NCBI GenBank assembly: GCA_021845665.1
Contig: JAJZVO010000043.1
Coordinates: 1-36,521, forward strand
Direction: 5' to 3'
DNA length: 36,521 bases
From: Bacteroidota bacterium
GTDB taxonomy: Bacteria > Bacteroidota > Ignavibacteria > Kryptoniales > JAKASW01
Positions 3,389 through 21,646 of this stretch are shown here, one piece after another. Made by a program: the position numbers and the translations under genes. The notes below the pieces were generated by a model. The model saw only the letters and a program-made list of their open reading frames with translations, searched no databases and was not told the origin of the DNA. Within the stretch, counting starts at the first letter, position 1. Each line of letters opens with the position of its first letter.

Positions 3389-6300
3389 ATGAAGAACGTC
3401 CAAGCAGTCATATTTAGTATCATGGTTCTGGCCGCACCCTCCGTTTCACTGTGCCAGGTCGCAGGAGGAACGGTTGCGGAACAGCAGGACTACACCTTCG
3501 CGATGGGGCTGTACCGCGACGGGCAGTATCCCATTGCACTTCAGCAATTCAAGTCGTTCATCAATCATTATCCCGGGTCGCACCATATCGACGAGGTCAC
3601 GTTCCTCGCTGGTGAGTGTCTTCTTCAGGAACGCATGTTCGACAGTGCCTTGAGTTATTATCAGCGAGTGATGGAGCAATTTCCCGGCTCTCATTATTTC
3701 GCCCAATCAGAGCTGCGTTCCGGCGAGATATATCTCCAGTTGAAAAAGCTGGGTAAGGCCGAAAGGCTGCTGAAGAACGCGCTGGCAAATTCCGGCGACA
3801 ATAGCGTGAAGGGCGAAGCCTCCTATAAGCTGGGACAGCTTTTTGTGGCCCGGGGAGACTATAACAACGCTATAAAGTATTTCGACCTTACATATCAAGG
3901 CTATCCAAAATCAGAATTCGCGGACTACGCGATGTACGGGGCCGCATGGAGCTACGGTAAGCTTTCCCAATTTGCCGAGAGCAAGAAGGCCTTCGCAGCG
4001 TTGTTGGCCGATTACCCCAACACCAAACTCCGGGCAGATGCCGTCGAGAAGATGGGTGAGTGCGATTTCTTTCTCGCAAATTATCGCGAGGCTTCGAACG
4101 AGTTTTCAAATGCCATATCGTTGACGAAGAACAGCGAGATAGTCGAACCCTCCCTTTATTACAGAGGACGTGCCTTCATGGCGGTAGGAGAGCCCGACAG
4201 CGCCGGGATCTCGTTTGAGGAGTATCTGGATCAATTTCCATCCGGTGATCACTCGCAGGAGGTCCGCGTCCTCTACTCCACGATTCTTATCTCAGCCAGG
4301 TCCGACATACCTGAGGCGCTCCGTCTGCTGGCACAGATCAAGCCCGATGATCCTATGTATTTCAATGCAAGATTGGAAACAGCTCGCGCATACGAAGCAT
4401 CCGGAGACAGAGACTCCGCAGAGTCGACGCTGCTGCAATTGGCAAGTTCATCGAAGGCCGAAAGTCAGGTTGCACGATCTTATTTCGAGCTTGGGAAATT
4501 CTATTTTCAAAACAAATCCTACGGACAAAGTCAGGAAGCCTTTCTTCTGGCTTCCAAGTATCCAGCGCTTTATGCTGAGGCAATGAAGAACGCAGCCGTC
4601 TCGGCTGCTGCTGCAAGCGATTATGCGAATGCAAAGCTCTATTTCCTCAATGCCATCTCGAAGCTCAAAGGTGCCCAGTCCGTGAAGGCGCACTTCGATT
4701 ACGCCGCTTCTCTGTATGCGTCCCGCGATTTTGCAGGAGCGGCACAGATTTATACGACTGCGGCGGATATCGCTCCTACCGACAGCGAGAAATCGCAAGC
4801 GCTCTACATGGCTGCCGAATCATCTTACAGAGCGGGTATGTATAAGCGTGCTACGGCGGATTATCAGGAATACCTCAAGTCTTATCCCGCCGGTGATCAC
4901 GCCGAATCTGCCGCACTCGGCATCGGATACTCACTGTATTTCTCCGATCATTTTGCCGAGGCTGCGAAAACTTTCCAGAACTTTATAAACCGCTATCCCT
5001 CTTCGCCGATGCTTTCGGATGCGTACTTGAGGATGGGCGACTGTTATTATTACGCGAAGGATTTTCAAAGGGCTCTCGATATCTACAAGAGCGCGGCTTC
5101 GTCGTTTGCCGGAGACACTTCGGCGGCCTATGCGTGGTACCAAATCGGCCAGACTTATTTCCAGCTGGGTCAGTACACTCAATCGCTGAGTGCGTTCCAG
5201 TTTGTGATCGGCAAATATGCCTCGTCGTATGTCGCACCCGAAGCACGCTATGCGATCGGCTGGGTTTACTTCTCCGAGAAAGATTACACCGATGCCATAT
5301 CAAACTTCAGTAGAGTGACCGAAGACTACCCGAGCAGCGATGTCGCCGCACGAGCCATTTACAGCAAGGGCGATTCTTACTATAACTCCGGTAATTACGA
5401 AAGCGCTCTAATCAATTACAGGCAGCTCCTTGAAAAATATCCCACGAGCCAGTATGTGGACAATGCGATAGTCGGCATGCAGTACTGCCTGACAATACTT
5501 GGCCGGACGCAGGAAGCCGAGCGCGTCATAGACGATTTTGTAAAGAATCATCCGAACCTTCCCAACGTAGACAGAATCTATTACAAGAAGGTCGAGTATG
5601 CGCTGAATCAGAAACACTACCCCGAGGCGAAGCGGGATCTTCGGGAGTTCCTGGCAAAGTTCCCGCATAGCGCTCTCGTGCCCAAATCACTTTACAACCT
5701 CGGTAATGTCGAGGTCCATCTCGGTAATTCCCAGGAGGCGATTCAGGATTTCAGAAAGCTTATTTCCACTTTACCGTCCAGCGACTACACTACTGCCAGC
5801 CAGGTCAAGCTTGCCGAGATATACAGTGGCGAAACCAATTATGCCAAGGCGGAAAAACTTCTCAACGAAGCGGCCGCCGCGTCGAACGACTATGGCACTA
5901 CGGCTCAGGTCGACCTCGGGAAATTGTACCTCCAGCGAGGCGACACGCTCAGAGCGGAATCGAATCTGTCCAAGGCCGCGTTGTCGCAAACTGATTCCGT
6001 CAACGACGGAGACAAGGCCGAGGCAAAGGTTCTTCTCAGCGGAATTTACTTCGACAAAGGCCGCGTAGCGGACGCTATTTCGCTTGCCAACTCGGTCGCA
6101 AAAACGCGCGATGATATTATCGGGGCTGAAGCTCAACTCCATGTCGCCGAATACTATTGTGCCTCAGGCGACAGTTCCGACGCGGTATTGGCTTTCCTCA
6201 GGGTGAAGTATGTGTTCTCAAGTTTTCCGGACATGGTTGCAAGGTCGCAGCTCGGGCTCGCGCGGTGCCTGGTCAAGTACGGCAATATCAGCGACGCAAA

Positions 6301-6391
6301 GTCGCTCCTCGAGGAGTTCATAAAGGAGAGGAGCCCCGATGCTTTTACCAGGACTGCCAGGGAAGAATTGAATAAGCTCAATTCCCGTTAG
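3389..6391 (+). CDS. large secreted/periplasmic tetratricopeptide-repeat protein
   Basis: About 1000 residues built almost entirely of TPR-like helical hairpins of the YbgF/BamD-like kind (repeats such as YxxGxYxxALxxFxxFINxYPxS). I chose the ATG at 3389 because it starts a signal peptide (MKNVQAVIFSIMVLAAPSVS); the in-frame ATG at 3281 would put 36 unrelated residues in front. The repeats run to the C-terminus without another recognisable domain. Such solenoids scaffold envelope complexes. It is followed after 13 bases by a di-haem cytochrome and then a barrel protein, so it probably acts in the periplasm or at the outer membrane with them. The specific partner is unknown. Confidence 0.88.
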   Translation: MKNVQAVIFSIMVLAAPSVSLCQVAGGTVAEQQDYTFAMGLYRDGQYPIALQQFKSFINHYPGSHHIDEVTFLAGECLLQERMFDSALSYYQRVMEQFPGSHYFAQSELRSGEIYLQLKKLGKAERLLKNALANSGDNSVKGEASYKLGQLFVARGDYNNAIKYFDLTYQGYPKSEFADYAMYGAAWSYGKLSQFAESKKAFAALLADYPNTKLRADAVEKMGECDFFLANYREASNEFSNAISLTKNSEIVEPSLYYRGRAFMAVGEPDSAGISFEEYLDQFPSGDHSQEVRVLYSTILISARSDIPEALRLLAQIKPDDPMYFNARLETARAYEASGDRDSAESTLLQLASSSKAESQVARSYFELGKFYFQNKSYGQSQEAFLLASKYPALYAEAMKNAAVSAAAASDYANAKLYFLNAISKLKGAQSVKAHFDYAASLYASRDFAGAAQIYTTAADIAPTDSEKSQALYMAAESSYRAGMYKRATADYQEYLKSYPAGDHAESAALGIGYSLYFSDHFAEAAKTFQNFINRYPSSPMLSDAYLRMGDCYYYAKDFQRALDIYKSAASSFAGDTSAAYAWYQIGQTYFQLGQYTQSLSAFQFVIGKYASSYVAPEARYAIGWVYFSEKDYTDAISNFSRVTEDYPSSDVAARAIYSKGDSYYNSGNYESALINYRQLLEKYPTSQYVDNAIVGMQYCLTILGRTQEAERVIDDFVKNHPNLPNVDRIYYKKVEYALNQKHYPEAKRDLREFLAKFPHSALVPKSLYNLGNVEVHLGNSQEAIQDFRKLISTLPSSDYTTASQVKLAEIYSGETNYAKAEKLLNEAAAASNDYGTTAQVDLGKLYLQRGDTLRAESNLSKAALSQTDSVNDGDKAEAKVLLSGIYFDKGRVADAISLANSVAKTRDDIIGAEAQLHVAEYYCASGDSSDAVLAFLRVKYVFSSFPDMVARSQLGLARCLVKYGNISDAKSLLEEFIKERSPDAFTRTAREELNKLNSR

Positions 6392-6404
6392 GAGAAAACA
6401 TTAG

Positions 6405-6839
6405 ATGAACAAGACAGCCGTGTTTTACGGTACTCTCATTACTATAATTGTGCTCGCTCTCATTATCTCGTCGGATTTGAATAAGACTCCTGATTACAGA
6501 CCGAAATTCGCCGGCTTCGTGACGGAGCAGATACTCTCTAAGGATACTACAAACACCTACGGTCAAAACCTTCAGGTTCTGCACGGCATACATTCGAAAG
6601 AGCAACTTCTAAATGTTATGCAAGGGTTTTCCGAAGCACTTGGCGTCAAATGTGATTTCTGCCATAACACCGACGATTTTGCAAGTGATTCAAAAGCCCC
6701 AAAGCGAATGGCCAGGATCATGATTAGAATGGTGAGAAACATCGACGAGAACTATTTGAACGGTCCCCAGATCAAGAAGGTCACTTGCTTCACCTGTCAT
6801 CGCGGGCAAGCAATTCCAAAGCTGGTTGCCGAAAGGTGA
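6405..6839 (+). CDS. membrane-anchored di-haem c-type cytochrome (reaction-centre cytochrome-like family)
   Basis: 144 residues: an N-terminal hydrophobic anchor (about 7-23, TLITIIVLALIIS), then a domain with two CxxCH haem sites, CDFCH (83-87) and CFTCH (128-132). The layout HSKEQLLNVMQGFSEALGV before the first site and CFTCHRGQAIP at the end match the family named after the photosynthetic reaction-centre cytochrome subunit, which is widespread in non-phototrophic Acidobacteria and Bacteroidota. Methionines upstream of each site could be axial ligands. The start has an AGGAG site, 13 bases after the TPR stop. Its stop overlaps the GTG start of the next gene. Function in electron transfer is likely; donor and acceptor are unknown. 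Nothing else in the window suggests phototrophy. Confidence 0.88.
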   Translation: MNKTAVFYGTLITIIVLALIISSDLNKTPDYRPKFAGFVTEQILSKDTTNTYGQNLQVLHGIHSKEQLLNVMQGFSEALGVKCDFCHNTDDFASDSKAPKRMARIMIRMVRNIDENYLNGPQIKKVTCFTCHRGQAIPKLVAER

Positions 6840-8521
6840 GAGCGAAGATTTTAGCAGTAGTCGCTGTACTGTGCGCCTGCGCTGTGGGCGCGAACGCGCA
6901 GGGAATCGTAACGCCGCCGGTATCGACCTTCCAGCCCGATTCTGCTCTCCCCAGTGTCAAAGTCCCGGAATTTGTTATCACCGGTAAAACACAGGTCTCA
7001 CTTCCCAAAGCCGCCAAGCCGACGGTGAAAATTGACTCGAACTATTTCCAGGGTAAGAGAATCCGTGGCATAGAAGCCGAATTCCCGTCGAACCGTGAGA
7101 TAAGCAGGGAAATCCTGGGAGGTGCTCAGGCAAGGCCGGGACTGTTCGCACGTGCCTCAATCGGTCATTACACGACCGCGAACTATCTCCTGTCGGGAAG
7201 CGAAAGCATAAGTGGCTTCGACCTTAACGGCAGCGTGTCCGGCGACTATACTGCCGGATTCATTCCTAACACCGCCAGCAGGGGCTTCTCAGTTAGCGCC
7301 GGTCTTGCGAAGGACATCGATTCCCGCGAGATGATCAAGTCGAGCAATTCCCTGGACTTCGGCTACTCGCGATCGAGCTTCTCGCTGTATGGCGGTCCGC
7401 TGCCGACGCTTCGAAGGGAAACTTCAAAGGTCCGGTTCGGTGTGAACTCGGATATGTATCTGGGCAAGCTTCCGCTCGCATTCGGACTGGACTTTAATGA
7501 TTTTACGGTCGACGACTACTGGCATGATTCCCAGTCTTCGCTCGGCCTCATGGCCAGCACCCAGGTACAGCTTCCGTCGGGTTGGCTTGGGTTCAGAGGC
7601 AACCTCAAATTCGGCAATCACACCCTCAGCGGACCTAAAGGCGGGCTTGTTAACAATCCGGTAGTTCCGCCCGATTCGGCGGGACTGAACAGGTCCATTT
7701 ACGACCTACGCCTGGGCGGCAGCTACGGCAATTCGTTGATGCTGGGAAGCTTCACTTACTCCTTGGGACTCACCTATTACCAATTCCGCGACGACTCGTC
7801 GAGCACGGTTGCCAAAGTGTACCCTGACTTAAGGGCCGACTACAGAGTGAGCGATATCGTTTCGCTCTACGCGAGCCTCGATGGGTCCGTCAGACAGGGA
7901 AGTCTGGAAAAGTTTCTGTCCGAAGATCAATACGTGGACGGACTGTTGCCCCTTATCGATACGCAGAATAATCTCGTGATTACATTCGGAAGCAGGATTC
8001 TAGTTGCAGACGGCTTTACACTCATACCGCAGGTCGGATACAGGCGTGCGAAGAATTTGCCGCTCTTTTACTCCGATTTGACAAATGTCACCCGTTTGAC
8101 TTATTCGACTAGTGCCTCGATAACTTCCGTGTCACTTTCAGCCGAATACAACATGGAGAATTTTTCTGCAAATCTCGGCCTTGAATATCAGAATGGAACC
8201 GCCGATTCCCTTTCTTCGATACCGAACCTCCCGCCTTTCAATGCTGACCTGGGGCTCGATTACCGGTTTACGCCTCAGCTTAATGCCATAGCGCACTTCC
8301 TTTTCCTCTCATCGAGGTATTCAGACCTTGCTCTTACACGAAAGGTGAGCCCGGTCGGATTGCTTGATCTCAGGCTTTCTTATGATTTCAAGATCATGGA
8401 ACTGCCCGTCCAGGTATTTGCGGGTGGGAATAACTTACTCAATGAGAAGTACTACATATGGCAGGGATACCAGGCGTTCCCCCTGACCCTCTACGTCGGT
8501 CTGAGCAGTAGAATCTTCTGA
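6836..8521 (+). CDS. outer-membrane beta-barrel protein (TonB-receptor-barrel-like, no plug)
   Basis: About 561 residues from the GTG at 6836, which overlaps the cytochrome stop (GTGA) and directly begins a signal peptide (VRAKILAVVAVLCACAVGANA); an upstream in-frame TTG at 6785 would put 17 extra residues before it. The mature start carries VPEFVITGKT, reminiscent of the VxVTG segment of TonB-dependent receptors, but no plug domain follows. The rest is alternating beta strands, and the end (FAGGNNLLNEKYYIWQGYQ, then a terminal strand ending in Phe) resembles the last strands of TonB-receptor barrels. It is probably a pore or binding protein in the outer membrane that works with the neighbouring TPR and TonB proteins. 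The substrate is unknown. Confidence 0.75.
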   Translation: MRAKILAVVAVLCACAVGANAQGIVTPPVSTFQPDSALPSVKVPEFVITGKTQVSLPKAAKPTVKIDSNYFQGKRIRGIEAEFPSNREISREILGGAQARPGLFARASIGHYTTANYLLSGSESISGFDLNGSVSGDYTAGFIPNTASRGFSVSAGLAKDIDSREMIKSSNSLDFGYSRSSFSLYGGPLPTLRRETSKVRFGVNSDMYLGKLPLAFGLDFNDFTVDDYWHDSQSSLGLMASTQVQLPSGWLGFRGNLKFGNHTLSGPKGGLVNNPVVPPDSAGLNRSIYDLRLGGSYGNSLMLGSFTYSLGLTYYQFRDDSSSTVAKVYPDLRADYRVSDIVSLYASLDGSVRQGSLEKFLSEDQYVDGLLPLIDTQNNLVITFGSRILVADGFTLIPQVGYRRAKNLPLFYSDLTNVTRLTYSTSASITSVSLSAEYNMENFSANLGLEYQNGTADSLSSIPNLPPFNADLGLDYRFTPQLNAIAHFLFLSSRYSDLALTRKVSPVGLLDLRLSYDFKIMELPVQVFAGGNNLLNEKYYIWQGYQAFPLTLYVGLSSRIF

Positions 8522-8531
8522 GACTTGGCGC

Positions 8532-8543
8532 ACACGGCTTTTC
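8532..8543. repeat. ACACGGCTTTTC motif, copy 1
   Basis: Exact 12-base match to 11022-11033, with similar flanks (ATTTTGA here, GTTATTGA there). Both copies lie in intergenic DNA upstream of plus-strand genes. It may be a shared regulatory site or chance. Confidence 0.3.
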
Positions 8544-8571
8544 ATTTTGACCGATGTGTCGTTAAATGAGG

Positions 8572-8609
8572 TTGAATCAATTCAAAATATTTCGCACTTT
8601 GAGTGCGAA
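8572..8609. promoter_or_regulatory. two adjacent dyads in the leader of the SPOR gene
   Basis: TTGAAT-CA-ATTCAA (8572-8585) is followed by TTCGCACT-TTG-AGTGCGAA (8591-8609), a perfect 8-bp hairpin. They lie 15 bases before the AGAGGAGG ribosome site (8624-8631). Either could be a repressor operator. The second could also be an mRNA structure or a processing site that separates the SPOR/TonB genes from the upstream TPR/cytochrome/barrel genes. No T-run follows, so it is not a typical terminator. Confidence 0.5.
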
Positions 8610-8638
8610 GAACTCCAACCAATAGAGGAGGAATGACG

Positions 8639-9226
8639 ATGGGAAATCTGAATTTTCAGGAAGGCCAGAACGAGAATCCCGAACAGGATCCTAACCAGAA
8701 CCAGGGACCGAATCAGCCTGAAGAAAACGAGAGGAACCTGAGGGCAGACGAAGGCTATATCGATGATCCGACAAGCGGCTCGTCCAAGTTTCTCTGGATT
8801 GCTATCGTAGTCGTACTCATTGCGGGCATCGGGGGTGCGCTTTACATGCTGAACCGGGCGGGCTATTTGAAGTTTTTGAATAAGAAAAAGCCTGTAATCA
8901 CGACGATTACTACACCGGCTCCCGCAGCCACAGCACCTGCGACCGTTACGAGCATGACGAAAGCTGCCGCTAAGCCGACGCCGGCACCACAGGGATCTTT
9001 CGCATTGCAGGTAGCAGCCTTCACAAACAGGCAGCAGGCGAACAGGTTTGTATCATCCATGAGGAAAAAAGGAATCGATTCTTACGTGGCTGAGAGCCTG
9101 GCCGGCGGTAAAAGATGGTACAGAGTCTGTACGGGTTCGTTTGATACTAAGCTGAAGGCGATTGCAGCCATTCACAACATGAAGCAAAAAGTTGGAACCG
9201 ATGTCTGGGTTGTACCCGCTCAATGA
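8639..9226 (+). CDS. SPOR-domain single-pass membrane protein
   Basis: About 195 residues. I chose the ATG at 8639 because AGAGGAGG (8624-8631) sits 7 bases upstream; ATG 8633 is too close to it. The order is an acidic, Asn/Gln/Pro-rich cytoplasmic N-terminus, one transmembrane helix (FLWIAIVVVLIAGIGGALYML), an Ala/Pro/Thr-rich linker and a C-terminal SPOR domain (GSFALQVAAFTNRQQANRF to the end). SPOR domains bind peptidoglycan strands stripped of stem peptides, often at division sites. Its gene overlaps the next one, a TonB-like protein, so the two may act as a cell-wall-spanning pair. This is inference from context. Confidence 0.9.
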   Translation: MGNLNFQEGQNENPEQDPNQNQGPNQPEENERNLRADEGYIDDPTSGSSKFLWIAIVVVLIAGIGGALYMLNRAGYLKFLNKKKPVITTITTPAPAATAPATVTSMTKAAAKPTPAPQGSFALQVAAFTNRQQANRFVSSMRKKGIDSYVAESLAGGKRWYRVCTGSFDTKLKAIAAIHNMKQKVGTDVWVVPAQ

Positions 9227-10127
9227 CAAGTCAAGGAGCATAGCCGGTTCGTACTTCTACAGGCAGTACGAACTTAAGAGAATTTATCGGAAGAATTTCT
9301 ACAACGGCATGTTTCTCGCCATCGGTGTGCATGCCGTTATCTTTCTGTTCCTTATCCTTTATGCGCCGGCTCTTAGTAAACCGCCTGAAGTAAAAATGGT
9401 TCTCTTACCTCCTGTCGATGTGCACTTCAATGTGATGCAAATGAGAATGGTCGGCAGTAAGCAATCGGGTATGGATGTATCTGGAGCGGGCGGAGGTAAC
9501 GGTACGATTCGCCATAATGCCGCAGCCGCTTATGCTATTGCAGTCCCTTCAAACCGGGCGAATCCGTTGAACTCGATCGATCAGAAAGCTTCCGTTGTCC
9601 CGCGGTCACTTCAGGGCCCCGGCATGAACAACATTGTCGGGATAAGCAGGCGCCCGGTCTATTTCGATACTGTGAACGGCTTCAGCGGCAATTCCATGAA
9701 CGGCACAGGATCGGGCGGCGGTATTGGAACAACGATCGGCGACACGATCGGCACAGGAGCGGGGCTCACCGGCAAACCGGGGTTTGGCGGTGGCTTCGGT
9801 AACCGGTTCGTCCCGGGTAACCCGGGGAATAACTCTGCATCCGGAACTCCTTATGCTATTTCATGGAACGGTGTCGCGCGGGCTCTCGTGGCCGGAAACA
9901 GACCTGAGTTTCCACGAGGTGCTGAAAGTGGCGGAGTGGTCAGGATTAGAATCGTCGTGAATCCCGCGGGAGATGTAATCTCGATGGTCCCTGTGGAGAA
10001 ATCGGGAGCACGATTGGATGAGGCGGCCATGTCGGCGATCAGGACCTGGCGCTTCAGCAGGCTGGAGAGAAACTATCCGCAAGTCAACCAGTCCGCGGTC
10101 GCTACCTTCGTGTTCAAGGCGGAATAG
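9201..10127 (+). CDS. TonB-like energy transducer with Gly/Asn-rich linker
   Basis: About 308 residues from the ATG at 9201, which overlaps the SPOR gene by 26 bases; a TTG at 9192 is an alternative. A basic N-terminus precedes one transmembrane helix (about 33-55, MFLAIGVHAVIFLFLILY). A long periplasmic linker rich in Gly, Asn and Thr (for example TGSGGGIGTTIGDTIGTG) replaces the usual Pro/Lys-rich spacer. The C-terminus has the TonB_C pattern: GGVVRIRIVVNPAGDVISM, SGARLDEAAMSAIRTWRF. TonB proteins pass proton-motive energy from ExbB/ExbD to outer-membrane receptors. No exbB or exbD is in the window. The barrel protein two genes upstream is the obvious candidate partner, but it lacks a plug. 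The AgmX-type TonB-like family is an alternative assignment. Confidence 0.82.
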   Translation: MSGLYPLNDKSRSIAGSYFYRQYELKRIYRKNFYNGMFLAIGVHAVIFLFLILYAPALSKPPEVKMVLLPPVDVHFNVMQMRMVGSKQSGMDVSGAGGGNGTIRHNAAAAYAIAVPSNRANPLNSIDQKASVVPRSLQGPGMNNIVGISRRPVYFDTVNGFSGNSMNGTGSGGGIGTTIGDTIGTGAGLTGKPGFGGGFGNRFVPGNPGNNSASGTPYAISWNGVARALVAGNRPEFPRGAESGGVVRIRIVVNPAGDVISMVPVEKSGARLDEAAMSAIRTWRFSRLERNYPQVNQSAVATFVFKAE

Positions 10128-13672: not shown

Positions 13673-14497
13673 ATGATAGTCAACTTAAAAGACATCAGGA
13701 TCGGCGAAGACAACCCGCTCGTGGTGATAGCCGGGCCGTGTGTGGTCGAGAGCAGGGAACTTGCGTTTAAAGTCGCTGGGGACGCGAAGAAGATTACCGA
13801 AAAACTCGGGATGCCGTACATTTACAAGTCGAGCTACAAAAAGGCCAATAGGACAAGCGGGAAGACCTTTGTGGGCATCGGTATGGATGAAGCCCTGAAG
13901 ATACTCTCGGATGTCAAAAGGGAGTTCGATCTTCCAATCATTACCGATGTGCATTCTGAGGAGGAAGTGGCGACCGCGGCCGAGGTTGTCGATGTTCTCC
14001 AGATCCCAGCATTCCTTTGCAGACAGACCGAGCTTCTGCATGCTGCCGGAAGAACGGGGAAGGCAGTGAACATCAAGAAAGGGCAGTTCATGGCTCCTGA
14101 AGACATGCGCCTTCAGGCTGAAAAAGTCAAAGACACCGGAAATCAGAACGTCATGCTTACCGAGCGCGGAGCGAGTTTCGGCTACCATAACCTTGTCGTA
14201 GACATGAGGTCGCTTGTTATCATGAAGGAGAGCGGCTATCCCGTGGTGCTCGATATCACTCATTCTCTCCAGCTTCCCGGCGGTGAAAAGGACAGGACGG
14301 GCGGTCAGCCCCAGTTCATCTTTCCGATAGCACGAGCCGGTGTTGCCGTTGGAATCGACGGAGTCTTCCTTGAAACCCATCCCGATCCCTCAAAAGCTTT
14401 GAGCGACGCCGCAACGCAATTGCCGTTCCACCTGTTCGAGCCACTTCTGACGCAGATCAAGAGGATCGACGCGGCCCGCAGGGAAGTGGCCGCATGA
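13673..14497 (+). CDS. kdsA: 3-deoxy-8-phosphooctulonate synthase
   Basis: 274 residues, full length. It condenses phosphoenolpyruvate with arabinose 5-phosphate to give KDO 8-phosphate for the LPS inner core. Motifs: IAGPCVVES with Cys23, YKSSYKKANRTSG for substrate phosphate binding, TDVH, and DITHSLQLPGG. Cys23 in AGPC (Asn in the E. coli type) points to the metal-dependent class known from Aquifex. It is the first gene of a tight operon, and its stop overlaps the kdsC start by 4 bases (ATGA). The ATG at 13673 has no strong ribosome site; GTATGATAG precedes the coding sequence. Confidence 0.96.
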   Translation: MIVNLKDIRIGEDNPLVVIAGPCVVESRELAFKVAGDAKKITEKLGMPYIYKSSYKKANRTSGKTFVGIGMDEALKILSDVKREFDLPIITDVHSEEEVATAAEVVDVLQIPAFLCRQTELLHAAGRTGKAVNIKKGQFMAPEDMRLQAEKVKDTGNQNVMLTERGASFGYHNLVVDMRSLVIMKESGYPVVLDITHSLQLPGGEKDRTGGQPQFIFPIARAGVAVGIDGVFLETHPDPSKALSDAATQLPFHLFEPLLTQIKRIDAARREVAA

Positions 14498-14997
14498 CGA
14501 AACATCAGGTCCTCCTATCTAAGCTGAAGAAGACGAAGGCTCTCCTTCTCGATGTGGACGGAGTCCTGACGGATGGCGCGATCATCTATGGGGCCGATGG
14601 CATTGAACTTAAAGTTTTCGATTCGCAGGACGGGTATGGAATCGTCAACGCAATCAAACAGGGAATAAGAGTCGGCATTATTACTGCCAGGAAGTCTGAA
14701 GTCGTCGAGAGGCGGGCGACCGACCTCGGCATCATCGATCTCTACCAGGGATCGATAGACAAACTCACTCCATATGAGAAGATCAAGAAGGCTTATTCAT
14801 TCCAAGATTCTGAAGTCGCTTATATAGGTGACGATTTGCTCGACATGCCTCTCCTCCAACGGGTCGGTTTCAGCGCGGCACCTGCAAATGCTGTCAGAGA
14901 TGTGAAAATGAAAGTGGATTACGTGGCAAAAGCGAAGGGCGGCCACGGTGCCGTCCGCGAGGTCATCGATCTGATATTGAAAGCACAAAAGAAGTAA
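14494..14997 (+). CDS. kdsC: 3-deoxy-D-manno-octulosonate 8-phosphate phosphatase
   Basis: 167-residue HAD-superfamily phosphatase without a cap domain, as is typical for KdsC, which acts as a tetramer. It releases phosphate from KDO 8-phosphate. The nucleophile motif is LLLDVDGVLTDG (Asp20, Asp22), motif II is IITARKSEVVERR, and motif IV is YIGDDLLDMPLL. The C-terminus VAKAKGGHGAVREVIDLIL is the usual KdsC tail that reaches into the neighbouring subunit. It overlaps kdsA by 4 bases and is followed 9 bases later by kdsD. Confidence 0.95.
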   Translation: MTKHQVLLSKLKKTKALLLDVDGVLTDGAIIYGADGIELKVFDSQDGYGIVNAIKQGIRVGIITARKSEVVERRATDLGIIDLYQGSIDKLTPYEKIKKAYSFQDSEVAYIGDDLLDMPLLQRVGFSAAPANAVRDVKMKVDYVAKAKGGHGAVREVIDLILKAQKK

Positions 14998-15006
14998 GCG
15001 GGGATT

Positions 15007-15984
15007 ATGGACGCCATCGAAAAAGGTAAAGAGGTCGTAAGAATTGAGGCACGCGCCGTTCAGGCTCTGGAGGGCAAGATCGGCGAAGAATTCGCCGGAG
15101 CCGTCGACCTCATAGCAGGAATCTCAGGGCGCGTCGTAATTACCGGGATGGGAAAATCTGGCCTGATCGCGAGGAAGATTGTCGCGACGCTGAATTCGAC
15201 CGGCACCGCAGCCATCTACATGCATCCGAGCGACGCGGTACATGGAGACCTCGGCATGGTACGTCCCGAAGACGTGGTCGTCTGCATATCGAACAGCGGC
15301 GACACGGCGGAAGTGGTACAGCTTCTCCCGATGTTCAAGCGAATAGGTGTCCCCGTCATCTCGATTCTCGGAAATCGTTCCTCGAAGCTCGGCCGCGAAA
15401 GCAGTTTCGTCCTCGATGCGGACGTCGAACAGGAAGCATGTCCTTATGATCTTGCGCCGACGGCCTCGACGACGGCCGCTCTCGTGATCGGAGACGCGCT
15501 CGCGATCGCGCTCCTGGAAAGGAAAGGCTTCACCGAGGAAGAATTCGCGATGTTTCACCCCGCAGGTAACCTCGGCATGCGACTCCTCCTTAAAGTCGAA
15601 GAGCTCATGGTCAGAGGGAAAGACATCCCCACGGTATTGAACTCGGCCTCGCTGCGCGAAACGATATTGGTAATGACGTCGGGGAGGCTGGGAGCGACCT
15701 GCGTTGTGAATCCATCCGGCGAACTCGCCGGAATAATTACCGATGGCGACCTTCGCCGCCTGCTCCAGAAGAATCTGGACTTCTCTCAGATGACCGCTGA
15801 CGACGTGATGACAAGAAATCCAAAGGTCGTCAAGCCGAACGTGCTTGCAGTTGCCGCCATCGAAGTGATGGAGAACTTCAACATCACTCAGCTCATCGTC
15901 GTGGACGAATCACGTAAACCTGTGGGCATGCTTCACCTTCACGATCTTGTGAAAACAGGACTTTCTCCTAAGAATGATGTATGA
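15007..15984 (+). CDS. kdsD: arabinose-5-phosphate isomerase
   Basis: 325 residues. It converts ribulose 5-phosphate to arabinose 5-phosphate, the KdsA substrate. An N-terminal SIS sugar-isomerase domain (VVITGMGKSGLIARKIV, CISNSGDTAEVVQLLP, and DLAPTASTTAALVIGDALA) with the HPAGNLG motif is followed by two CBS domains (VEELMVRGKDIPTV, DDVMTRNPKVVKPN) that may bind a regulatory nucleotide. This is the normal KdsD/KpsF architecture and length. Its last bases overlap the lptC start by 4 (ATGA). Confidence 0.95.
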   Translation: MDAIEKGKEVVRIEARAVQALEGKIGEEFAGAVDLIAGISGRVVITGMGKSGLIARKIVATLNSTGTAAIYMHPSDAVHGDLGMVRPEDVVVCISNSGDTAEVVQLLPMFKRIGVPVISILGNRSSKLGRESSFVLDADVEQEACPYDLAPTASTTAALVIGDALAIALLERKGFTEEEFAMFHPAGNLGMRLLLKVEELMVRGKDIPTVLNSASLRETILVMTSGRLGATCVVNPSGELAGIITDGDLRRLLQKNLDFSQMTADDVMTRNPKVVKPNVLAVAAIEVMENFNITQLIVVDESRKPVGMLHLHDLVKTGLSPKNDV

Positions 15985-16526
15985 TGAGACACCTGGGGAA
16001 TCCGGCCCTCCTCCTCGCTCTTTTTCTCCTCCTCGCGCTGGCCGGCTGCCAGGATAAGCTGAAACCGACGGTCGTGCCGGTTACAGGGAAGCTCCCCGAC
16101 CAGGAAAGCTGGAACTCCACGATCGTCTTCAGCGACAGCGGACAGACCCGCGGCATTCTCTGGGCCGGGCATGTGCTCGTCTTCAATAACATAAACAAAA
16201 CCTTCCTGGGTGACAGTATCAGGGTGGATTTCTACAACGGCCGGGGACAGCATACAAGTTATTTGACCGCAGACAGCGGCATAGTGGACAACAATACGAA
16301 CAATCTCGAGGCGATCGGGAACGTCTATGTCCACAGTGACAGCGGAACATCCCTCTGGACGCAGAAACTCTTCTGGAATAACAACACGCAGAAGGTGACT
16401 TCCGATGTTTTCGTCAAGATAGTATCGACTAAGGAAACGATAGAGGGAATCGGATTCGAATCGGATCGCGATCTGACGAATTACAGGATTTTCAACGTCA
16501 GCGGGGAAGCGAAGACCGCAAAATGA
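15981..16526 (+). CDS. lptC: LPS export lipoprotein LptC-like
   Basis: 181 residues. The N-terminus is a lipoprotein signal with lipobox LALAGC (Cys23), unlike E. coli LptC, which keeps a membrane helix; lipoprotein LptC forms are common in Bacteroidota. The mature part is a beta-rich LptC/OstA-type fold (FNNINKTFLGDSIRVDFYN, YLTADSGIVDNNTNNLEAIGNVYVHSDSG). It would receive LPS from the inner-membrane LptBFG pump and pass it to LptA. Position in the kds-lpt operon, with 4-base overlaps on both sides, supports the call. Confidence 0.88.
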   Translation: MMRHLGNPALLLALFLLLALAGCQDKLKPTVVPVTGKLPDQESWNSTIVFSDSGQTRGILWAGHVLVFNNINKTFLGDSIRVDFYNGRGQHTSYLTADSGIVDNNTNNLEAIGNVYVHSDSGTSLWTQKLFWNNNTQKVTSDVFVKIVSTKETIEGIGFESDRDLTNYRIFNVSGEAKTAK

Positions 16527-17980
16527 TGATGGAGATTGAAACGAAGAATGGGAGAAGGGAGGACATGGAGAAGGGGAGACTCGGGGACACGGAGAAGCTC
16601 ATCACTTCAAGTTCAATGGTATCATGGTCCGGGAAGGTAATTAGTTTTTCGACTCCTGCGTCCCGGGACTCCGCATCACATTTCCGCCCTGTCAAGTTTT
16701 CTCCTGCGGTATCCGCCATTTCACTCTTTTCGTTTGTGGCCTTTCTTCTGACCGCCGTTCTTCTCATCTCTGCCCCCGCAAAGGCCCAGCAGCCCGTCAG
16801 GCTAATCCATGCCGATAGCCTTGTTGGATACACATTAAACGGCGACGCCTACCGCGAGCTTGTCGGGCACGTTAAGCTCGAGCAGGATAGCACGACTCTG
16901 AGCTGCGACCGCGCGCTCCAGGATCTGACACGCGACTCGGTCAGCCTCTATGGCAACGTCCATGTCGACGACGACACCCTAACACTTATTACCCAGCGAG
17001 CGCACTACTCAGGAATTACTAAAACCGTTACGAGTCACACTCCCGTCTATCTGAACGACCGACGGCGTACGCTTACAGCGAACAGCGGCTCATACGATGC
17101 GGAGACAAAAATCGCGAGTTTTTTTGGCGATGTTTTCGTGCGAGATTCATCATCATGGCTGAAGAGCGATACCCTCTATTACTTCAGGATTCCCGACAGC
17201 ACCATAGCTAACGGCAGCGTGAAGATAAAAAGTCTTGACAATAACGTCACGATCTACGGGGCGCATTTCCGAGATTACGGTAAGAGAAACTACAGCCGCA
17301 TGATCGGCAAACCTTTACTCGTCCAGGTCGACACGGCATCTGACGGAAAGATCGACACCTTGATGATAACGGGTAAAACTATGGCGGCGTATCGCGATTC
17401 CTCAAACGAACGATTCGTTGCGGAGGATAGCGTGAAGATTGTCCGTGGCTCACTCTCCGCAAGGTGTGGCTATGGAATTTACCTTTCGTCAGACAGCCTC
17501 GTTATCCTACAAAAGACTCCCGTTGTCTGGTACGAAGAGAATCAGCTGAGCGGCGACAGCATTGCCGTCTACATAAGGAATAAGAACATATCCAGAGTCT
17601 TTGTGTCCGGTGCGGCGTTTGCCGTCTCACAGAGCGACTCGCTTTATACCGACAGGTTCAACCAGCTAAAGGGTAGACAGCTTACGATGTACCTGCATGA
17701 CAGGAAGGTAAGCCGAATCATCGTTGAAAGTAACGCCACCAGTTTGTATTATCTCTACGACAAGAACAAACCCAACGGCGCGAACAAAGTGAGCGGGGAC
17801 AGAGTCGTAATGTACTTTACCGACGGTAAGATCGATAAAATATCCGTGATAGACGGAGTCGAAGGGGATTACTATCCTGAGAACATGGTCAAGGACAAAT
17901 CTGATGCATACAATCTGGTTGGTTTCAGGTATTACAAGGCCCGTCCTCTCAAGAAAACAATGCCAGACGTCTGGAAGTGA
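16523..17980 (+). CDS. lptA: LptA/OstA-like periplasmic LPS transport protein, with extended N-terminus
   Basis: 485 residues. The mature part is a long array of LptA/OstA-type beta repeats (RLIHADSLVGYTLNGDAYRELVGHVKL, TLTANSGSYDAETKIASFFGDVFV) as in the Bacteroidota OstA-like family, longer than the roughly 185-residue E. coli LptA. It would bridge LPS across the periplasm. The start is odd: from the ATG at 16523, which overlaps lptC by 4 bases, about 60 residues of hydrophilic sequence precede the signal-like helix and AKAQQ cleavage site near residue 88. The DNA for residues about 9-26 is purine-rich, repeat-like sequence. An ATG at 16616 would shorten the extension. The gene overlaps lptB by 4 bases. 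Confidence 0.85.
   Translation: MMMEIETKNGRREDMEKGRLGDTEKLITSSSMVSWSGKVISFSTPASRDSASHFRPVKFSPAVSAISLFSFVAFLLTAVLLISAPAKAQQPVRLIHADSLVGYTLNGDAYRELVGHVKLEQDSTTLSCDRALQDLTRDSVSLYGNVHVDDDTLTLITQRAHYSGITKTVTSHTPVYLNDRRRTLTANSGSYDAETKIASFFGDVFVRDSSSWLKSDTLYYFRIPDSTIANGSVKIKSLDNNVTIYGAHFRDYGKRNYSRMIGKPLLVQVDTASDGKIDTLMITGKTMAAYRDSSNERFVAEDSVKIVRGSLSARCGYGIYLSSDSLVILQKTPVVWYEENQLSGDSIAVYIRNKNISRVFVSGAAFAVSQSDSLYTDRFNQLKGRQLTMYLHDRKVSRIIVESNATSLYYLYDKNKPNGANKVSGDRVVMYFTDGKIDKISVIDGVEGDYYPENMVKDKSDAYNLVGFRYYKARPLKKTMPDVWK
16548..16597. repeat. purine-rich repeat-like segment inside the lptA 5' end
   Basis: Units of the form GGGAGAAGGGAGGACATGG, then GAGAAGGGGAGACTCGGGGA and CACGGAGAAG, repeat imperfectly. 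Strings like this are, from general knowledge, dispersed repeats in diverse bacteria. Here the copy is in frame and adds hydrophilic residues before the signal peptide. Confidence 0.45.
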
Positions 17981-18783
17981 GCGGTAGTTTGCCGGAACAG
18001 GATGAAGTGAGCTACGAGGAGCGGCTCGTGACTGATCAGGGGACTAACGGTCGGAGCGCGCTCTATTCGCGCGAGCTTCAGAAAAAGTACAAGAAACGTT
18101 ATGTCGTGAACGGCGTCTCCGTCGATGTCAAGCAGGGTGAGGTGGTCGGGCTCCTCGGGCCGAATGGCGCGGGAAAGACCACCACTTTTTACATGATGGT
18201 CGGCATGATAAGGCCCAACGCGGGCAACGTCTTCATCGACGATTCGGTCATTACCGGTATGCCCATGTACAGGCGAGCGCTTCTCGGAATAGGATACCTC
18301 CCGCAGGAAGCCTCGATTTTTAGAAAGATGAGCGTTGAGGATAACATAGAGGCGGTGCTCGAATACCGAAAATTACCCCGCACAGAAAGAAAAGCGCGCC
18401 GCGATCGCCTTATCGATGAGTTGGGGATCGGAAATATTAGGAAGACGCTCGGTTATGCTCTTAGCGGTGGTGAGAGGCGCCGCACTGAAATTGCTCGCGC
18501 ACTCGCAACTGAACCGAAGTTCATGCTTCTCGACGAGCCGTTTGCCGGCATCGACCCGCTTGCAGTCGAAGATATTATGAAGATCGTCGTCAGCCTGAAG
18601 GAAAAAGGCATCGGGGTTCTCATAACAGACCATAATGTTCACGAGACTCTGTCGATCGTGGACCGTGCGTATCTTCTCTTCGAAGGCAGGATATTAAAAT
18701 CGGGCACATCCGAGTCCCTCGCGAACGATCCCGAGGCGAGGAAACTCTATCTCGGTGAGAATTTTAGACTGGATAGGTATTAA
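17977..18783 (+). CDS. lptB: LPS export ABC transporter ATP-binding protein
   Basis: 268 residues. The ATPase of the LptBFG pump that extracts LPS from the inner membrane. Walker A is GPNGAGKTT, Q-loop YLPQEASIFRKMSVEDNI, signature LSGGERRR, Walker B FMLLDEPFAGIDP, and H-loop ITDHN. GIDPLAVEDI and NVHETLSIVDRAY are typical of LptB rather than other ABC ATPases. It starts at a GTG whose last bases overlap the lptA stop and carries about 28 extra N-terminal residues before the first strand. lptF and lptG are not in the window. It ends the operon; I see no clear terminator after it. Confidence 0.95.
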   Translation: MSGSLPEQDEVSYEERLVTDQGTNGRSALYSRELQKKYKKRYVVNGVSVDVKQGEVVGLLGPNGAGKTTTFYMMVGMIRPNAGNVFIDDSVITGMPMYRRALLGIGYLPQEASIFRKMSVEDNIEAVLEYRKLPRTERKARRDRLIDELGIGNIRKTLGYALSGGERRRTEIARALATEPKFMLLDEPFAGIDPLAVEDIMKIVVSLKEKGIGVLITDHNVHETLSIVDRAYLLFEGRILKSGTSESLANDPEARKLYLGENFRLDRY

Positions 18784-19189
18784 TCCAGGACAAATACCTT
18801 AGATCAAAATACGAATCCATAACCGCTTGAAGGTGTGCGCCACCAAAGTTTTTTTGAATCCGCCCTTTCACAAGCTCAACCCCGGATCCGATCACAGGTA
18901 AGTGCGCGTCTTCCTTTGCATTCGCCGTGATCCAGTGAGAGGCCACGGTCAAGGAGATTTGTATGAAACCGGCCGCACAAGAGTCATGTGTCTCTATGGA
19001 AGGTAAACCAGGCATTCAAGGTGACGAGGAGCACCGCGTCTTAAGTCGATAGTTTCGAGATTGTACATATATAGTACTTGCATTATGGCGCAAATTCAGG
19101 GCTGGCGCTGGACGGGATATGCGATACCTTTCTCGCCTGCAAACATCTGATGCAATTATTCTTAATCTTTGATAAGGCGGGTAACACAG
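18784..19189. other. 406-base gap after lptB
   Basis: No conserved gene is evident. It holds a 29-codon frame at 18963-19052 with a good ribosome site, and an AT-rich palindromic stretch GTACATATATAGTAC at about 19064-19078 that may be part of the promoter for the secreted protein downstream. Confidence 0.3.
18963..19052 (+). CDS. possible small protein, 29 residues
   Basis: AAGGAG lies 6 bases before an ATG that opens 29 codons (begins MKPAAQESCVSMEGKPG, ends HRVLSR). The ribosome site is as good as any in the window. The peptide is hydrophilic, with no membrane segment or known motif. Nothing independent shows that it is expressed, and it could be a remnant. Confidence 0.25.
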   Translation: MKPAAQESCVSMEGKPGIQGDEEHRVLSR

Positions 19190-21646
19190 ATGAAATACAC
19201 CTTCCGGGTTTCAGTCATCTTCTCATTATTCGTCATCGGCGTTCATCGCTTGCCGGCGCAGTGGGTTCAAGTTGGGGGACCGGAAGCTGCAGTGGTGCAT
19301 TGTATTACAGGGCACGACTCGGTTGTCTTTGCTGGCACCTATCTGTGTGGGGTCTTCGTCAGCACGGACAGAGGAGCCGATTGGAAATCTCTCGATGCCG
19401 GACTGGCAAATCGAAATATAACCGTCACATCCCTGGAGTCCGACAGTACATCTCTCCTGATAGGGACTTCGAGCGGCGCTTTCCGTGCTACTGACAGCTC
19501 CAAGGAATGGATCGTGGAGGACGCAGGTCTATCCGGAATGAACGTGACTGGAGTTGTAGATGCGGAAACGTACCACTTTGCGAGCACATCTCATGGCGTC
19601 TTCCGTTTGGCCGGTGCCGAAACGAGTTGGGTTGAGGTTGACGATGGGTTGCCGAACAGCCCGATAGAGAGTATAGCGATCAGTCCGGATTCATCGAGAG
19701 TACTCGCTATCGGTACACAGACTCAGGGGGTCTTCGTTTCGACCGACTCGGGCCGAGACTGGTCCGCCGCAAGTAGTGGATTGGGAAGCCTGAATGTCCA
19801 TGTGGTGGCTTTTGATAACACCTCTCCCGATACAGCCGCCCCGCGTCTTTATGCTGGCACAGACCTCGGGGTGTTTCAGTCAACCGATTTCGGGAAAACA
19901 TGGTTCGCATGCAATGTTAACAATTCAGGTATCATATCAATAGGGACATTTGTAAATACCTACGGGGTAAGAAGCATTATTGCTGGGGCATATTTGGAAA
20001 ATGGCGGACCCTTCGAATCGACCGATGACGGAAAGACGTGGATTTCCATCGGTAACAAGCTGCCACCGAACAACGACGTGTTCTCCATCTACACACCGCA
20101 TGATTCGTCAGGATACATCTACCTTGGCCTGGGCGGGGCGGGTGTTATCCGTTCCACAGATTGCGGCGCGACGTGGAGCGCCGCCAATCATGGATTGTTG
20201 GGGTCGGCCATCTCCTCAATTGCCGTGGCCGACAGTGGTGCGGGAGATCCAAAGATTTTCGTGAGCTCTTACTACGCCAACTATGCATCACACGATGGCG
20301 GAGGGGCCTGGTCCGCTATGAGCAATGTGTGGTATCCCACGCCTCTCTGGAATCACATAAAAAGTTTCGCTGTGGACGGGGGAAAAGTATTTGCATGCGG
20401 AGACTTTACGGGGATGGCCTCTAACGTGTATAACACGACTGATTTTGGCATGGACTGGACTCCAACGGCCTCCTTGCCGAGCGCGACCGTCCTCGCCATT
20501 GCGCCGGATTCGCCAGACTTTCTGTACGTCGGGACAAACGGAAACGGAGTTTTCGATTCGCACGATGACGGTAACCATTGGTTTTCCATCGGACTGACAA
20601 ATTCCGACTTAATGTGTCTGGCCAGTGGCACCACGACATCCGGTGGACCGATTCTTCTGGCGGGTACAACGACGGGCGTGTATGGCTCTACTGACGGCGG
20701 CGCTTCATGGTCGCAGATCGGGTTGACTGACAGCGCAACCGGGTTCGCGATAACCGGCAGGGGCATCTTCACCGGAAGCGAGAACGGTGTGTTTCTGTCG
20801 CGCGATGGGGGAAAGACCTGGACGGCGGAAGATTCAGGACTTACAACGCGGAACATTCGCTCGCTAAACGCGATAAGATCAAATGTGTTTGCGGCCACCG
20901 ACTCAGGAGTGTTCTTTTGCAGAAGCACGAGCAACGGATGGGAGAGAGTTAATGAAGGCTTAAGTCATGTCTCGATTAACTGTCTCACTATGGATTCGAC
21001 CTGTCTCTATATCGGTACCTCAAGCCAGGGAATCTGGAAAAGGCCGCTTGTTGATTTCGGGATCATCACCACATGGCCCCGGCATTTTGTTCCGGCTGAT
21101 GATTCGGTACTGACAGTCGAACCGGTGAGCTTTGTTTGGGATCCAATTCCAGCCGCTACAGGGTACGAGTTGCAGATTGCCTACGATTCGACGTTCGGAA
21201 AGATATGTGTGGATTTACCCTCAGCCGGAGACACATCTCTGAACGTTTATCCTTTTCTACAAGACACTGGGTATTACTGGAGGGTGCGCGCATATAGTCA
21301 AAACGATACCGGCGGCTGGTCCGACATTCGGTATTTCAGGACGGGCAGGATCACTTCCATCGAAAAGGGGCCGGTGCAACCGATGTCGTTTTCTCTTTTT
21401 CAGAATTATCCCAATCCGTTCAACCCCACGACAAATATCGGATTTCGAATTTCGGATGTCGGATTTGTTACGCTGAAAGTGTATGACGTGATGGGAAGAA
21501 GAGTTGCGACGCTTGTGGACAAGGTGGAACAGCCGGGGAGTTACGAGGTCCAGTTTAATGGAAGCGATTTGGCGAGCGGAGTGTATTTTTACAGGCTGAC
21601 GGCCCCGTCATACTCAAAAGTCATGAAAATGCTTCTCCTGAAATAA
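19190..21646 (+). CDS. T9SS-secreted protein with Asp-box (BNR/VPS10-like) propeller repeats
   Basis: About 818 residues from the ATG at 19190, which begins a signal peptide (MKYTFRVSVIFSLFVIGVHR, cut near LPAQ). I count eleven Asp-box-like motifs (for example STDRGADW, STDSGRDW, STDDGKTW, STDCGATW, STDGGASW, SRDGGKTW), the hallmark of sialidase/VPS10-type beta propellers. Near residues 630-720 is a fibronectin-III-like segment (VSFVWDPIPAATGYELQI, YYWRVRAYS). The last 85 or so residues are a type A sorting tail: FSLFQNYPNPFNPTTNI, LKVYDVMGRRVATLVD, and GVYFYRLTA. It should be exported by the type IX system and anchored or released. No catalytic sialidase residues can be identified, so the ligand is unknown. 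Confidence 0.88.
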   Translation: MKYTFRVSVIFSLFVIGVHRLPAQWVQVGGPEAAVVHCITGHDSVVFAGTYLCGVFVSTDRGADWKSLDAGLANRNITVTSLESDSTSLLIGTSSGAFRATDSSKEWIVEDAGLSGMNVTGVVDAETYHFASTSHGVFRLAGAETSWVEVDDGLPNSPIESIAISPDSSRVLAIGTQTQGVFVSTDSGRDWSAASSGLGSLNVHVVAFDNTSPDTAAPRLYAGTDLGVFQSTDFGKTWFACNVNNSGIISIGTFVNTYGVRSIIAGAYLENGGPFESTDDGKTWISIGNKLPPNNDVFSIYTPHDSSGYIYLGLGGAGVIRSTDCGATWSAANHGLLGSAISSIAVADSGAGDPKIFVSSYYANYASHDGGGAWSAMSNVWYPTPLWNHIKSFAVDGGKVFACGDFTGMASNVYNTTDFGMDWTPTASLPSATVLAIAPDSPDFLYVGTNGNGVFDSHDDGNHWFSIGLTNSDLMCLASGTTTSGGPILLAGTTTGVYGSTDGGASWSQIGLTDSATGFAITGRGIFTGSENGVFLSRDGGKTWTAEDSGLTTRNIRSLNAIRSNVFAATDSGVFFCRSTSNGWERVNEGLSHVSINCLTMDSTCLYIGTSSQGIWKRPLVDFGIITTWPRHFVPADDSVLTVEPVSFVWDPIPAATGYELQIAYDSTFGKICVDLPSAGDTSLNVYPFLQDTGYYWRVRAYSQNDTGGWSDIRYFRTGRITSIEKGPVQPMSFSLFQNYPNPFNPTTNIGFRISDVGFVTLKVYDVMGRRVATLVDKVEQPGSYEVQFNGSDLASGVYFYRLTAPSYSKVMKMLLLK

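Follow-up and report, generated by a model that had tools for sequence, protein, structure and literature searches.

Here we analysed a 36,521-nucleotide stretch of DNA from a Bacteroidota bacterium, referred to below as the window (GenBank assembly GCA_021845665.1, contig JAJZVO010000043.1; C34 in our numbering of the contigs of this 4.64 Mb genome). At 3389-10127 it carries genes for a tetratricopeptide repeat (TPR) protein, a di-haem cytochrome, an outer-membrane barrel, a SPOR-domain protein, and a TonB-like protein (Table 1). Direct reading of the genes and their junctions confirmed all five genes and the close packing described in an earlier note on this DNA, with a 13-base gap between the TPR and cytochrome genes and a GTGA overlap between cytochrome and barrel. 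A 117-base leader then precedes the SPOR and TonB-like genes, which overlap, as that note had also said, by 26 bases if the TonB-like gene starts at ATG 9201. This start matches the start in several relatives; the alternative is TTG 9192. The SPOR gene start at ATG 8639 has AGGAGG 7 bases upstream, and a longer in-frame start is present at 8603. An Rfam scan of the window matched no family, the leader hairpin included.

Table 1. Positions of the genes and features of the locus in the window.
Feature	Position	Strand	Evidence
TPR scaffold, 1000 aa; signal peptide ends before Gln23	3389..6391	+	Pfam TPR families, NCBIfam, AlphaFold, Gln23 conservation
Di-haem c-type cytochrome, 144 aa; lineage-specific addition	6405..6839	+	Pfam, NF033196, distribution
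Outer-membrane barrel of TonB-transporter type, no plug; GTG start in cytochrome stop	6836..8521	+	Domain searches, PDB, model
VPEFVITG, TonB-box-like, in the disordered N-terminal tail of the barrel	6962..6985	+	Conservation in 66 barrels, model
Predicted transmembrane strands of the barrel, residues 103-561	7139..8515	+	AlphaFold model
Barrel-SPOR leader; short perfect hairpin at about 8591-8609	8522..8638	+	Sequence, fold prediction
SPOR gene; one transmembrane segment (about 8783-8854), SPOR domain (about 8990-9214)	8639..9226	+	Pfam, sequence
TonB/TolA-like putative force transducer; TonB_C domain at about 9924-10118	9201..10127	+	Pfam, NCBIfam, motif comparison

The TPR, barrel, SPOR, and TonB genes, normally together with ExbB and ExbD, almost certainly constitute a conserved Bacteroidota system. 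A barrel search matched 36 of 61 relatives, and 34 of the 35 stretches found through the barrel have a TPR gene of about 1000 residues either adjoining it or one cytochrome gene away; the remaining stretch (L065) contains no barrel. Of 80 loci found with the TPR protein in named genomes, 78 carry the barrel, and in the other two (L096 and L114) the sequence ends 40-41 bases past the TPR gene. In a phylum-wide sample of 296 genomes, the barrel profile (E up to 1e-5) matched 257, a figure that must include some ordinary TonB receptors; for the TPR profile (E up to 1e-40) the figure is 206. Adjacency was scored in 110 of these genomes, using the best TPR and best barrel match among those listed. 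Within that set of listed matches, 85 genomes have the TPR gene immediately upstream of the barrel: 64 of 66 inside the class and 21 of 44 outside it.

Gene order was counted over 99 non-duplicate loci (14 duplicates of the same contigs were dropped, and L096, L114, and L065 were excluded). The maps were made without overlap filtering; greedy open reading frame maps had missed the cytochrome gene of L031 and L033 and the SPOR gene of L033 and L034. Downstream of the TPR-barrel pair we found SPOR in 77 loci, TonB in 75, ExbB in 48, and ExbD in 46. For the 79 loci with at least 4 kb of downstream sequence, the counts are 69 for SPOR, 70 for TonB, 43 for ExbB, and 40 for ExbB, ExbD, and TonB together. 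Where TPR and barrel adjoin directly, 46 of 81 junctions show a 4-base overlap, and a Latescibacterota record (L111) has the order TPR-barrel-ExbB-ExbD-TonB. Three genes flanking the locus in the window (W03, W09, and W10) occur in 10, 9, and 9 of 11 loci of the genus and in 0, 2, and 0 of 90 others, whereas the same single-sequence search of those 90 found TPR in 90, barrel in 67, SPOR in 37, and TonB in 60. Since the four genes recur in distant loci and the flanking genes do not, their grouping is not a matter of chance. The proposal in the earlier note of a single envelope system stands. Four of the five genes occur together in loci well beyond the genus, and inside the genus the full five do, so the co-occurrence test that it had named did not refute it. 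The gene set is not peculiar to this lineage, with the TPR-barrel pair found across Bacteroidota.

The earlier note gave the barrel a TonB-receptor-like end and no plug, and both features were borne out. It has no plug domain and no Pfam family above cut-off, and its TonB-receptor matches in NCBIfam are sub-cut-off and confined to the C-terminal part. Sequence-profile matches in the PDB are exclusively TonB-dependent receptors, down to E 0.04. An AlphaFold model built on a 66-sequence alignment, with a mean predicted local distance difference test (pLDDT) of 81.4, contains 25 strand elements, of which we counted 22 as barrel strands (410-414, 420-424, and 541-543 were excluded). The best match among solved structures is BtuB, with Z 23.1 over 413 residues and a root-mean-square deviation of 3.1 Angstrom, and further top matches include FhuA (Z 23.0) and PqqU (Z 22.6), all TonB-dependent transporters. 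The protein is thus predicted to adopt the 22-strand fold of this family.

Within the modelled tail, VPEFVITG is the most conserved 8-residue window across 66 barrels, at 2.96 bits versus a mean of 1.16. TonB boxes of E. coli have the same acidic-hydrophobic-Val-Thr pattern, and the motif, which resembles such a box, may be where TonB contacts the barrel. Outside the class the motif drifts to EIEIV, EVEIRG, or EIEVV. As a separate observation, the TonB strand that follows the transmembrane segment (ELPEFVEVSWG in L086, L084, and L090) is similar to the ELPEY[VI]ITG motif of the barrel, as would be seen if the two docked on a common partner edge, though the likeness may be due to chance.

With this modelled fold, a TonB-box-like motif, and linked ExbB-ExbD-TonB, the system resembles the Ton system and transporters such as BtuB and FhuA, and the barrel could take up a nutrient in a TonB-dependent way, with, for example, the TPR protein or the 80-residue tail acting as its plug in trans. 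However, no plug domain was found in the four barrels scanned, and the tail (residues 21-100) is too short and, in the model, disordered. The system also differs from Ton transporters in having a TPR partner and a SPOR protein, and it is near-universal in the class, while neither uptake genes nor substrate-linked genes were recognised beside it. We consider a nutrient transporter unlikely.

The TPR protein matches TPR families in Pfam, and its best NCBIfam match is tol_pal_ybgF at 290 bits; a PDB search with the TPR profile returned mostly generic TPR proteins. Its AlphaFold model (mean pLDDT 91.3) is a single continuous superhelix of 53 helices after the signal, which might span the periplasm. 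Residue 23 is Gln in both the TPR protein (48 sequences) and the barrel, with a conservation of at least 90%. This fits the Bacteroidetes signal-peptidase Q-rule, which, in the part of the source cited here, does not hold across the whole Fibrobacteres-Chlorobi-Bacteroidetes group (PMC5837995).

We also considered whether the TPR protein is a relative of PorW/SprE and the locus part of the type IX secretion system (T9SS). It does match the PorW/SprE model NF052312, but at 139.7 bits against a cut-off of 250 (98.2 for the TPR protein of L184), so that this identity was rejected, and other TPR models, with tol_pal_ybgF foremost, outscore it. The window does encode, at 19169-21646, a protein of 825 residues that combines sortilin/BNR-type repeats with a C-terminal T9SS sorting domain, so type IX secretion is probably in use in this genome. 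Among the loci with inspected proteins, however, no T9SS gene was recognised beside the pair, and a role in this system is extremely unlikely.

The SPOR domain scores 54.5 bits in Pfam (cut-off 21). In the window the protein has a short cytoplasmic part, a transmembrane segment, and a periplasmic SPOR domain, and it is without the HU domain of many relatives. Those relatives have an HU gene plus a SPOR protein with an HU-type N-terminal domain, for example Bac_DNA_binding at 52.7 bits in L058 and HU-CCDC81_bac_2 at 69.9 bits in L193. The TonB-like protein belongs to the TonB family by its TonB_C domain (Pfam, 34.8 bits; cut-off 24.6) and by the conserved His in its transmembrane segment (AIGVHAVIFLFL), with a glycine-rich spacer between the two. 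Among loci with ExbB/ExbD, 45 of 47 retain this His; the figures are 10 of 11 for those with the cytochrome and 14 of 22 for those with neither (45/47 vs 14/22, Fisher p 0.001, a value that is only indicative because the loci are related). A strand motif after the membrane segment is present in 42 of 47, 0 of 11, and 10 of 22 of the same groups. Loss of the linked motor is therefore accompanied by change in the motor-contacting part of TonB, which supports cooperation of motor and TonB where both occur.

The window's order, Kryptoniota, departs from the common arrangement in its motor. The earlier note had listed exbB and exbD as missing; they are indeed absent from the locus, but they are normal members of the system that have been moved or lost in Kryptoniota. 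Neither was found in 12 loci of the window's genus or 6 of its sister family, two of the genus contigs ending soon after TonB. The window's genome has a single ExbB-ExbD-ExbD-TonB cluster, on another contig, and its two other MotA/ExbB matches adjoin MotB-looking genes. In the two genomes of the sister (Kryptonium) family that were inspected, an ExbB-ExbD-TonB module lies elsewhere and scores like the system's own, with ExbB at 268 and 283 bits vs 113 for the generic ExbB of the window's genome. The motor has thus become unlinked from the locus, and in the window's genus it was probably lost, with the generic set as its likely replacement. TonB, whose His is kept there, would then have to use the ExbB-ExbD-ExbD set elsewhere in the genome. 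Two Kryptonium-family records (L204 and L207) contain a further TPR (1051 aa)-ExbB-ExbD cluster beside a gene of 985-992 residues, which is distinct from the system described here.

The cytochrome is the other Kryptoniota peculiarity. It carries two CxxCH motifs (CDFCH and CFTCH), and scores of 63.5 bits for Pfam CytoC_RC (cut-off 22.4) and 92.7 bits for NCBIfam NF033196, c_type_nonphoto (cut-off 70), place it in that family. Like PufC-like reaction-centre cytochromes, it is a two-haem protein of the PufC family, but it sits inside an envelope operon. All 18 loci of the order have its gene between those for TPR and barrel, as against none of 81 others. At least two copies occur in 12 of 13 genomes of the window's genus, the exception (G004) having one copy and no barrel match, while 6 of 7 Kryptonium-family genomes have exactly one, at the locus. 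Elsewhere in the class 6 of 41 genomes have one, away from the barrel in the three where the barrel was located (G021, G041, and G053). The earlier note was right to place a di-haem cytochrome in the middle of the locus, but the absence of this cytochrome from all 81 non-Kryptoniota loci rules it out as a core part; it is a later Kryptoniota addition, possibly with an accessory role.

An electron conduit in Kryptoniota, with the cytochrome at or in the plug-less barrel as in a porin-cytochrome pair, would fit this constant position and the fact that the locus copy is the only one in those six Kryptonium-family genomes. A second copy in the window's genome also counts in its favour: at 7026-10012 of L239 (G000:C83), a di-haem cytochrome of the same family lies between two genes that by eye encode, respectively, an outer-membrane-barrel-like protein and a protein with an N-terminal CxxCH followed by barrel-like sequence, possibly a porin-cytochrome cluster in its own right. 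Yet the N-terminal hydrophobic segment of the locus cytochrome looks by eye like an inner-membrane anchor that stays uncleaved, a pair of haems is a small number for crossing the outer membrane, and the core machine does without the protein in all other loci. We judge such a conduit very unlikely.

TPR-plus-barrel exporters such as BcsC, PgaA, and AlgK-AlgE are known, and in the locus a TPR protein stands beside a wide plug-less barrel. By analogy, the open barrel could be a conduit for export or import of polysaccharide, lipid, or protein, with the TPR protein as periplasmic guide and TonB gating it. Some 3.5 kb further downstream, at 13673-18783 of the window, is a run of lipopolysaccharide (LPS) genes, recognised by eye as kdsA, kdsC, kdsD, an lptC-like gene, an OstA/LptA-like gene, and lptB, for LPS core synthesis and export. 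The first genes of this run follow the locus in about half of 11 loci of the genus but in none outside it, where no synthase or substrate gene of the window accompanies the pair. BcsC, PgaA, and AlgK-AlgE have 16-18 strand barrels tied to a polysaccharide synthase, whereas this barrel matches 22-strand TonB transporters and has no linked synthase. SPOR proteins and TonB-type motors are not known to be part of TPR-barrel exporters. A transport machine is therefore doubtful, although it retains some weight.

We favour instead a TonB-energised, Tol-Pal-like coupling of the outer membrane to the wall, which has in our judgement an even chance of being correct. In the proposed mechanism, the long periplasmic TPR superhelix would work with the plug-less 22-strand barrel, and the TonB/TolA-like protein, for which the same operon normally supplies a dedicated ExbB-ExbD proton motor, would grip VPEFVITG on the free periplasmic tail of the barrel and so transmit force to the outer membrane. 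The inner-membrane SPOR protein would hold or place the assembly at peptidoglycan, with the division site as its most likely position. The machine as a whole would most likely serve to link the outer membrane with the wall and the proton motive force while the cell grows or constricts. If this is correct, a TonB transporter has been reused without its plug as a mechanical anchor and not as a gated channel.

Several lines of evidence point to this Tol-Pal-like role. SPOR domains bind septal peptidoglycan, and CpoB is the TPR member of Tol-Pal; the match of the TPR protein to tol_pal_ybgF counts on the same side. Like Tol-Pal (TolQ, TolR, TolA, TolB, Pal, and CpoB), the system in its full form groups in a single operon a motor of the TolQ/ExbB and TolR/ExbD families, a TolA/TonB transducer, a TPR protein, and a domain for wall binding. 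It differs in being without TolB or Pal: SPOR, not an OmpA-type domain, would bind the wall, an outer-membrane barrel takes the place of the lipoprotein, and the TPR protein is about 1000 aa long. TolB_N (PF04052) was found in 2 of 100 genomes of the class, both weak matches, and in none of the contigs of the window's genome (G000). A Pfam search limited to the window genes found SPOR only and no OmpA-type Pal domain in the operon. The part of a 2025 survey cited here reports no identifiable tol-pal loci in Bacteroidetes, notes that TolA and TonB can be indistinguishable, and states that further systems are yet to be revealed (PMC12204202). The rarity and weakness of TolB_N, this survey as far as cited, and the SPOR and CpoB background together make a Tol-Pal-like role the best single reading.

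Other findings weigh against this interpretation. The same survey, in that part, proposes PorE as the Bacteroidetes equivalent of Tol-Pal and as a tether (PMC12204202). PorE shares with our system the phylum, the proposed job, and a TPR part, but is described there as one lipoprotein with TPR, TolB-like, carboxypeptidase-like, and OmpA-like parts, and no barrel or dedicated motor appears in that description (PMC12204202). The matches of the TPR protein are generic. Of the 25 genomes scored as non-adjacent among the matches listed, 21 belong to family f35, in which the TPR gene is elsewhere, though in one example (L185) the barrel is still with SPOR, ExbB, ExbD, and TonB. With the class-trained hidden Markov models, only TPR and barrel were seen in the Bacteroidia loci L184, L192, L194, L197, L199, and L200. 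The tail motif is degenerate in four of these (L192, L194, L199, and L200), and ExbB, ExbD, and TonB were not detected in the same four. ExbB/ExbD are missing nearby in 22 of 69 loci that have TonB and no cytochrome. In the window's own lineage the His is kept but the strand motif after the TonB membrane segment is altered, which makes the usual driving of its TonB less secure. Finally, the ExbBs match TolQ with a better score than ExbB itself, but the same holds for the generic ExbB in the genome of the window (120.8 vs 75.8 bits), and the score, being non-discriminating, was rejected as evidence for Tol.

A search of titles and abstract openings found no paper describing this gene set, in line with the earlier note, although prior publication is still possible. 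More broadly, we tentatively suggest, at somewhat below an even chance, that Bacteroidota divide with a TonB motor acting on a plug-less barrel, a TPR brace as long as the periplasm, and a septal SPOR protein (with a DNA-binding HU domain in many lineages), to which Kryptoniota have added a redox subunit. The operon is in any case a concrete and widely conserved candidate for how Bacteroidota constrict or stabilise the outer membrane without Tol-Pal. Also in favour of the Tol-Pal-like reading, the TPR-barrel pair in L184 and L199 is divergent from an ABC ATPase gene that by eye is like the division gene ftsE.

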